From Actinomycetota bacterium (lineage in GTDB: Bacteria; Actinomycetota; CADDZG01; WHSQ01), in NCBI GenBank assembly GCA_016649855.1, contig JAENWQ010000003.1, positions 1 to 37,137 on the forward strand: a DNA stretch of 37,137 nt, written 5' to 3'. How positions within the stretch are numbered: position 1 is the first letter of the stretch; each line of letters opens with the position of its first letter. Both the position numbers and the translations under genes were made by a program. Shown in pieces: positions 16,405-18,311 of this stretch. Under the pieces are notes generated by a model that did no database searches, was not told where the DNA came from, and worked only from the letters and a program-made list of their open reading frames with translations.

Positions 16405-17592
16405 ATGTACGAGAGACGTAAGACCAGGCTGATCCACGTCGGTGGCGTGGCCGTCGGGGGCGGTTCTCCGATCTCGATCCAGTCGATGACGACGACCAAG
16501 ACCGACAATGTCGACGAGACCCTGATCCAGGTTCACGCGCTGGCGACGCAGGGCGCCGACATGGTGAGGGTCGCCGTGCCCCACGAGGGCGATGCCAAGG
16601 CGCTGCCGATCATCGCCCGGGAGGGCGGCGTCCCGATCATCGCCGACATCCATTTCTCGGTTCGTCTCGCGATGATGTCGATCGAGGCCGGTGTCCACGG
16701 ATTGCGTCTCAATCCCGGCAATATGAGGAATCCGAAGCACATCAAAGAGGTGGCCGACGCCGCGAAGGAACGGGGGATCCCGATCCGGATCGGGGTCAAC
16801 GCCGGGAGCCTCGACAAGAAGCTGGTCGAGAAGTACGGGCGGCCGACCGCTGAGGCGCTGGTGGAGAGTGCCCTCTACGAGATCTCTCTCCTCGAGGAAC
16901 ACGGGTTCAGGGACATCAAGGTCTCGGTCAAGCACCAGAACGTCCCGGAGATGATCAACGCCTACCGGCTCCTGGCGACGCAGACCGACGTCCCGTTGCA
17001 CCTCGGGGTGACCGAGGCGGGAACGCCCAAACAGGGGATCGTGAAGTCGGCGATCGGCCTCGGGACGCTTCTCGCCGAAGGGATCGGGGACACGATCCGC
17101 GTGTCGCTCACGGCCGATCCCGTCGAGGAGGTCAAGCTCGGCAAGCAGATCCTGAAATCACTCGGCTTGAAGGAAGACGGCTTTGACTTCGTCGCATGTC
17201 CGTCGTGCGGCCGGGCGGAGCTAGACGTCTTCGCGCTGGCGGGTGAGGTCGAGGCCCGGATCGAGAAGATGGATCTCCCACCGATGCAGATAGCGGTCAT
17301 GGGCTGCGAGGTCAACGGACCGGGGGAGGCCAGGGACGCAGATATCGGCATCGCCGCAGGTCCCGGGCGGGGACTGCTGTTCTCCAAAGGCAAGCAGATC
17401 GGCTGGGTGCCGCACGACCGGCTCGTCGATGCGCTGATCGAGGAGGCCGAGAAGGTCGCCGCCGAGATCCGGGCGGCGTCCGGGGATGGAGCCGTGACCA
17501 CCGGCGGGGTCACCGTGGTCAAGGGCGCGGGACGAGCGGGACGCAAGGTGGATCCGATCGTCCCGATCGGGATGGGGCCTCCGGCCGGCTAA
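16405..17592 (+). CDS. ispG: 4-hydroxy-3-methylbut-2-en-1-yl diphosphate synthase (IspG)
   Basis: 395 residues. The TIM-barrel half has PISIQSMTTTKTDN, DIHFSVRLAM and LRLNPGN; the C-terminal half has the [4Fe-4S] cysteines C265 and C268 (ACPSCGR) and C301 (MGCEVNGPGEA), with Glu 308 as the fourth ligand by family knowledge. It is the next-to-last enzyme of the MEP pathway. There is no strong ribosome site before ATG 16405. The C-terminal ~25 residues are Gly/Ala-rich and not conserved. Its TAA stop overlaps the stop codon of the bL37-like gene on the other strand. proS, which I recall downstream in Streptomyces, is absent. Confidence 0.97.
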   Translation: MYERRKTRLIHVGGVAVGGGSPISIQSMTTTKTDNVDETLIQVHALATQGADMVRVAVPHEGDAKALPIIAREGGVPIIADIHFSVRLAMMSIEAGVHGLRLNPGNMRNPKHIKEVADAAKERGIPIRIGVNAGSLDKKLVEKYGRPTAEALVESALYEISLLEEHGFRDIKVSVKHQNVPEMINAYRLLATQTDVPLHLGVTEAGTPKQGIVKSAIGLGTLLAEGIGDTIRVSLTADPVEEVKLGKQILKSLGLKEDGFDFVACPSCGRAELDVFALAGEVEARIEKMDLPPMQIAVMGCEVNGPGEARDADIGIAAGPGRGLLFSKGKQIGWVPHDRLVDALIEEAEKVAAEIRAASGDGAVTTGGVTVVKGAGRAGRKVDPIVPIGMGPPAG

Positions 17593-17675
17593 CCCTTGCG
17601 GCCGGCGTTGGGCCGCTTGCCGTGGTTCGCCTTGTTCTTTCGCCGGGACCGGCGCTTACGGCCCTTCTTCGCCAT
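17589..17675 (-). CDS. Small basic ribosomal protein, bL37-like (28 residues)
   Basis: A 28-codon minus-strand gene, ATG at 17675-17673 and TAG at 17591-17589. The peptide opens MAKKGRKRRSRRKN and ends with KANHGKRPNAGRKG; 13 of the 28 residues are Lys or Arg. The ANHGKRPN block matches what I recall of bL37, a ~24-residue large-subunit protein seen in mycobacterial ribosome structures and kept across actinobacteria. GGAGGAG at 17678-17684 lies just before the ATG. The gene is convergent with ispG, sharing the four bases CTAA where the two stops overlap. The 17691-17725 stretch upstream is unusually AT-rich and probably holds its promoter. The family match is from memory, not a search. Confidence 0.75.
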   Translation of the reverse strand: MAKKGRKRRSRRKNKANHGKRPNAGRKG

Positions 17676-17690
17676 ATCTCCTCCATCTGT

Positions 17691-17795
17691 TAGTCTTATT
17701 AATCATTGTGAGCAGGGATTTTTCGGTCTCCGCCAGGGGTGGAAACCGGTAACGCAAGTCGTAGTCTAGGCGCGAAGCCCAGGCGATTTGGAACG
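17691..17795. promoter_or_regulatory. AT-rich divergent promoter region between bL37-like gene and rimP
   Basis: The gap between the divergent bL37-like gene and rimP holds the most AT-rich stretch I noticed in the window (17691-17725, with TTATTAATCATT and GATTTTT). On the plus strand TAGTCT at 17762-17767 could be a -10 box for the rimP operon, but I find no convincing -35 for either direction. It is likely a two-way promoter region; exact elements are unresolved. Confidence 0.4.
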
Positions 17796-17819
17796 GAAGC
17801 CCCTCGAAGGAGGGGCTTC
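17796..17819 (+). terminator. Perfect 10-bp hairpin upstream of rimP (terminator or attenuator)
   Basis: GAAGCCCCTC (17796-17805), loop GAAG, then GAGGGGCTTC (17810-17819), followed by ATTTG. The stem is perfect and GC-rich, and only a short T tract follows, so termination would be partial. It lies 18 bases before the rimP ATG and downstream of any likely rimP promoter, which suits attenuation of the rimP-nusA-infB operon. In E. coli the equivalent operon is controlled by NusA in its leader; the same here is inference. Confidence 0.6.
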
Positions 17820-17837
17820 ATTTGTGAGGAGGACGAT

Positions 17838-18311
17838 ATGGGCGCTCTCGAGGAGGTCAGGGACCTCGCCGAGGCGGTTGCTCGCCGTCACTCCTTGCGG
17901 TTGTGGGATGTGGAGACCTCCGGCCGTCCCGGGTCCTCCGTCCTGAGGGTGTTCGTCGACGCGGACGGCGGTGTCGATCTGGACACCGTGGCCAAGGTCG
18001 CGGACGAACTCTCGAGGGCCCTGGATCTGAAAGATCCGATCGAGGGCCGGTACACGCTCGAGGTGTCTTCCCCGGGGCTGGAGCGCGCACTGAAGGCACC
18101 AGAGCATTACGTGTTGTCCAAAGGACTGGACGTCACCATCAAGACGAAGGAACCGGTGGTTGGGAATAGCCACCGGATCGACGGAGTGATCGACGGGATC
18201 GACGACTCCTCGGTGACGATCGAAACGGAGCAGGGCGCAGTCGCGGTGCCGTTCGGCTCGATCAAGTCGGCGCGAACGGTCTTCGAATGGAAGGGAAAGG
18301 ACAAGCGATGA
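17838..18311 (+). CDS. rimP: Ribosome maturation factor RimP
   Basis: 157 residues. N-terminal alpha/beta domain (LRLWDVETSGRPGSSVLRVFVDADGGVDLDTV), the family core YTLEVSSPGLERALK, and a C-terminal SH3-like beta barrel (GVIDGIDDSSVTIE, VPFGSIKSARTVFEW). RimP helps assemble the 30S subunit. ATG 17838 has GAGGAGGA at 17826-17833; an in-frame extension upstream exists but would run through the hairpin and lacks homology. nusA starts in its stop (ATGA), the conserved rimP-nusA pair. Confidence 0.95.
   Translation: MGALEEVRDLAEAVARRHSLRLWDVETSGRPGSSVLRVFVDADGGVDLDTVAKVADELSRALDLKDPIEGRYTLEVSSPGLERALKAPEHYVLSKGLDVTIKTKEPVVGNSHRIDGVIDGIDDSSVTIETEQGAVAVPFGSIKSARTVFEWKGKDKR

Follow-up and report, generated by a model that had tools for sequence, protein, structure and literature searches.

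A 28-codon gene for ribosomal protein bL37 in a poorly known branch of the Actinomycetota

The minus-strand reading frame that ends against ispG in the window (the whole 37,137-nucleotide stretch of DNA analysed here) very probably encodes ribosomal protein bL37, a reading to which sequence comparison gives a probability of about 0.96. As a bL37 gene it is an ordinary one: it adds a member to a known family for which NCBI already has a model, and it leaves the picture of what bL37 is unaltered. Known above all from mycobacteria and C. acnes, this protein also has a gene in an uncultured and poorly known lineage of the Actinomycetota. The gene is easy to miss, because it has just 28 codons, and the variable length of the bL37 C-terminus is relevant both to gene calling and to comparisons of the rRNA pocket near H89. 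We infer that this bL37 is expressed, binds the ribosome and has the structural role described below.

The gene and its neighbors

The features considered are as follows.

16405..17592, plus strand: ispG, the convergent neighbor (from the open reading frame list; named from sequence and gene order)
17589..17592, unstranded: overlapping convergent stop codons, CTAA (from the sequence; the same four-base overlap is present as CTAG in the congener G001)
17589..17675, minus strand: bL37 gene, 28 codons plus a TAG stop (from its translation, the NF047428 match, bL37 chains in the PDB and purifying selection)
17592..17603, minus strand: C-terminal extension G-R-K-G, past the 24-residue reference bL37 (from translation and sequence comparison)
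17678..17684, minus strand: Shine-Dalgarno-like GGAGGAG (read directly from the sequence)
17838..18311, plus strand: rimP, the divergent neighbor, followed by nusA and infB (named from sequence and gene order)

The frame at 17589-17675 translates as MAKKGRKRRSRRKNKANHGKRPNAGRKG, followed by a stop. Its ATG comes two bases after the end of GGAGGAG (17678-17684), the strong ribosome site that a sequence-only reading had attributed to this small gene; GGAGGA or GAGGAG lies at a similar distance from just 19 of the 1884 ATG and GTG triplets on both strands of the whole window. The 17 bases ahead of the start codon, TAACAGATGGAGGAGAT, are unchanged in G001. The same reading had given the gene a span of 17589-17692, the lower limit of which is correct; the coding sequence reaches only to 17675, and the remainder includes the ribosome-binding region.

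The tail-to-tail arrangement with ispG, also described in that reading, is confirmed at CTAA. The ispG stop (TAA) occupies 17590-17592 and the bL37 stop (CTA, which is TAG on the minus strand) 17589-17591, giving a four-base overlap of the reading frames in which two bases belong to both stop codons. On the other side, rimP is the divergent neighbor of bL37 in all 13 members of the window's taxonomic family that carry bL37. ispG flanks bL37 in nine of these 13 genomes, and was not present within the fetched flank in the other four. The overlap of the stops was found only in the two genomes of the window's genus examined (CTAA in the window, CTAG in G001); in the other family members, the gap between ispG and bL37 is 3, 13, 15, 21, 79, 97 or 718 bases.

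The overlapping stops and the lack of a good terminator between the genes on either strand (a scan gave one weak terminator-like site) mean that the ispG and bL37 transcripts may well overlap. It could thus be proposed that the convergent overlap, besides coding for bL37, regulates ispG or bL37 by antisense transcription or polymerase collision. This seems improbable given that the overlap is limited to the genus, with spacings of 3 to 718 bases elsewhere in the family, that the fetched flank of four family members contained no ispG, and that convergent gene overlaps are common in compact genomes. RNA folding between the two genes was no better than that of shuffled sequences (z of -0.05 and 0.78 for the two strands), and neither the survey of gaps nor the scans and folding gave any sign of a conserved regulatory device. 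No sigma-70 promoter was found in a simple pattern scan, and Rfam had no match in 17500-17900.

A hairpin, GAAGCCCCTC-GAAG-GAGGGGCTTC followed by ATTT, is located at 17796-17819, just upstream of rimP. Similar hairpins of the GCCCCT...AGGGGC type precede rimP in most family members, even though the sequence around them diverges, and were not seen in G012 or G015. This hairpin, for which there is no Rfam match, might act as an attenuator in the leader of the rimP-nusA-infB operon.

Identification as bL37

The product MAKKGRKRRSRRKNKANHGKRPNAGRKG matches NCBIfam NF047428 (ribo_Myco_bL37, an equivalog), the model curated by NCBI for 50S ribosomal protein bL37, over the full model length, with a score of 45.3 bits for a cut-off of 30 bits (E 7.1e-12). 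The match covers residues 1-24 of the 28-residue protein, residues 25-28 lying beyond the model. The gene was also recovered in a search of the whole genome with this model (E 1.7e-10), and these two E-values exclude a chance origin of the match. A phmmer search against the PDB matched five distinct bL37 sequences (5o60, 7kgb, 8crx, 6dzi and 7sfr; E 1.9e-6 to 6.1e-5), and nothing besides ribosomal bL37 chains was returned up to E 10. The planctomycete model NF047429 (ribo_Plancto_bL37) gave only 9.8 bits, for a cut-off of 40, and Pfam had no match for the 28-residue product. The bL37-like identity proposed from the letters is thus upheld by a curated equivalog model and by the bL37 chains of solved ribosomes. 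The genome contains a single above-cut-off bL37 match, according to both NF047428 and a broader bL37 alignment; there is, then, no second copy, and homologs are found at the same locus in relatives.

The sequence-only reading had also drawn attention to a GRKG addition. The four residues beyond the 24-residue bL37 are present, but they do not set this protein apart, such extensions being both common and variable. In the window's family, bL37 ends in AGRKG, AGRK, AGR, AGRR or AGRG, or in NA or NAS in a few members, and the Acidimicrobiia proteins end in GRG, GRR or GR. Basic C-terminal extensions are common in both groups, ruling out GRKG as a special feature. A longer extension is present in two proteins from a Mycobacterium-like genus (L032 and L033), which end in NAGSKSVR. 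The tail is probably translated and kept, because its codons differ only synonymously between the window's genome (G000) and G001.

The peptide might instead act mainly as a cationic antimicrobial outside the ribosome. This is very unlikely, because the sequence has no apparent signal peptide and the conserved residues agree with those of ribosome-bound chains. The antimicrobial reading draws its support from a disk assay, in which C. acnes bL37 was found to inhibit the growth of the Gram-positive S. epidermidis and S. aureus (PMC10085706). Growth inhibition by externally added peptide is, however, a property of many basic peptides, and such an assay is no demonstration of a natural role.

Conservation and selection

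bL37 is detected above the cut-off in 13 of the 16 genomes of the window's taxonomic family. It is single-copy here, kept in related genomes and under selection at the protein level: pN/pS is 0.04-0.21 relative to 12 other family sequences, changes being mostly synonymous, and the two species of the genus (G000 and G001) differ by seven synonymous changes and one non-synonymous change (Fisher P = 2e-4). Across 24 diverse bL37 sequences, K3, A16, N17, H18, G19 and P22 are unchanged. An untranslated chance open frame past the end of ispG, as might be suspected of something so short, set against ispG and lacking a promoter in the sigma-70 scan, is barely credible given the curated NF047428 match, the strong ribosome site and the conserved position beside rimP, and is refuted in practice by the conservation of the frame across the family with mostly synonymous change. 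The short basic frame can thus be accepted as the real gene it was first taken for, on the strength of the family-model match, the conserved frame and the ribosome site.

In a sample of 397 Actinomycetota genomes, NF047428 matched at E <= 0.01 in 70 and the broader bL37 alignment in 81. Three genomes (G190, G334 and G377) have two bL37-like matches each, suggesting occasional paralogs. The closest named relatives are two Actinomycetota MAGs, Dino_bin32 and Dino_bin16, obtained in a study of Centrosaurus fossil bone and its mudstone and assigned by the authors to a novel Actinobacteria class or order (PMC8067395).

Genomes lacking bL37

The absence of bL37 from G002 and G009 is uninformative and was not scored as loss, because rimP is also missing from both assemblies. 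G011, a member of the window's family, has an intact ispG-rimP junction with no bL37 between the two genes, indicating that bL37 is not indispensable across the family. A weak match in this genome (L019) was rejected as a bL37 gene. In the sister families f2 and f3 (G016-G023), neither NF047428 nor the broader alignment gave a bL37 match in any of the eight genomes. Their uL30 is the short form in seven of the eight, as determined by tblastn, and none was recovered from G023. The missing bL37 of f2 and f3 suggests loss or replacement; divergence past recognition is possible for a 24-residue protein. It may be tentatively proposed, as a somewhat doubtful generalization, that bL37 has been lost or replaced within this deep actinobacterial class (in f2, f3 and G011, in which the uL30 recovered is short), with a pocket that is perhaps empty or occupied by an undescribed protein.

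Predicted position in the ribosome and comparison with known systems

Similarity to solved bL37 proteins spans both the helix and the loop, and the same placement can therefore naturally be expected here. Judging from the homologous proteins in solved actinobacterial ribosomes, the N-terminal half, rich in arginine and lysine, would form a short helix. The ANHGKRPN block would form a loop that lies buried within a 23S rRNA pocket (H39, H40, H41/H42, H72 and H89), below the tip of the 5S rRNA. This loop would brace H89 near the peptidyl transferase center. The pocket and the H89 contacts are known from solved structures (PMC5876184, PMC10085706), and C. acnes bL37 also touches the 5S rRNA (PMC10085706). 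The additional GRKG might, as a guess, be a short basic tail making further contacts with rRNA. No 5S rRNA gene was found in the fragmented assembly (150 of 219 candidates scored).

The bL37 proteins of M. smegmatis and M. tuberculosis (5o60, 5xym, 7kgb) align without gaps over residues 1-24 and share the basic N-terminal half and the ANHGKRPN block, whereas the window's protein has four more C-terminal residues and other charged residues in the helix region. All 24 residues of C. acnes bL37 (8crx) align, with GRKRR, RRK and ANHGKRPNA common to both, but the C. acnes protein lacks the GRKG extension. The ribosomes of mycobacteria and C. acnes contain another extra small protein, bS22, and a bS22-like gene (L123, G000:C120:7994-8092; MPSLVKKRRKKMRKKKHRKMLKKTRWQRRQQGK) was observed in the window's genome.

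Acidimicrobiia bL37 (e.g. L066, L075) resembles the window's protein in its KANHGKRPN core and GR-type tail (GRR, GRG, GR), but differs in its N-terminal half (SKKTKKRK) and, mostly, in having one extra residue in the middle. Two proteins of this type (L072 and L087) are on contigs labeled Deltaproteobacteria and Bifidobacterium breve, which look mislabeled or contaminated.

In Borrelia, uL30 is extended at its N-terminus by a helix that fills the same rRNA pocket (PMC10618245). This filler is part of a longer uL30, with no gene of its own, whereas the uL30 of the window's genome is the short form, thus leaving the pocket to a separate protein, as expected of a genome with a separate bL37.
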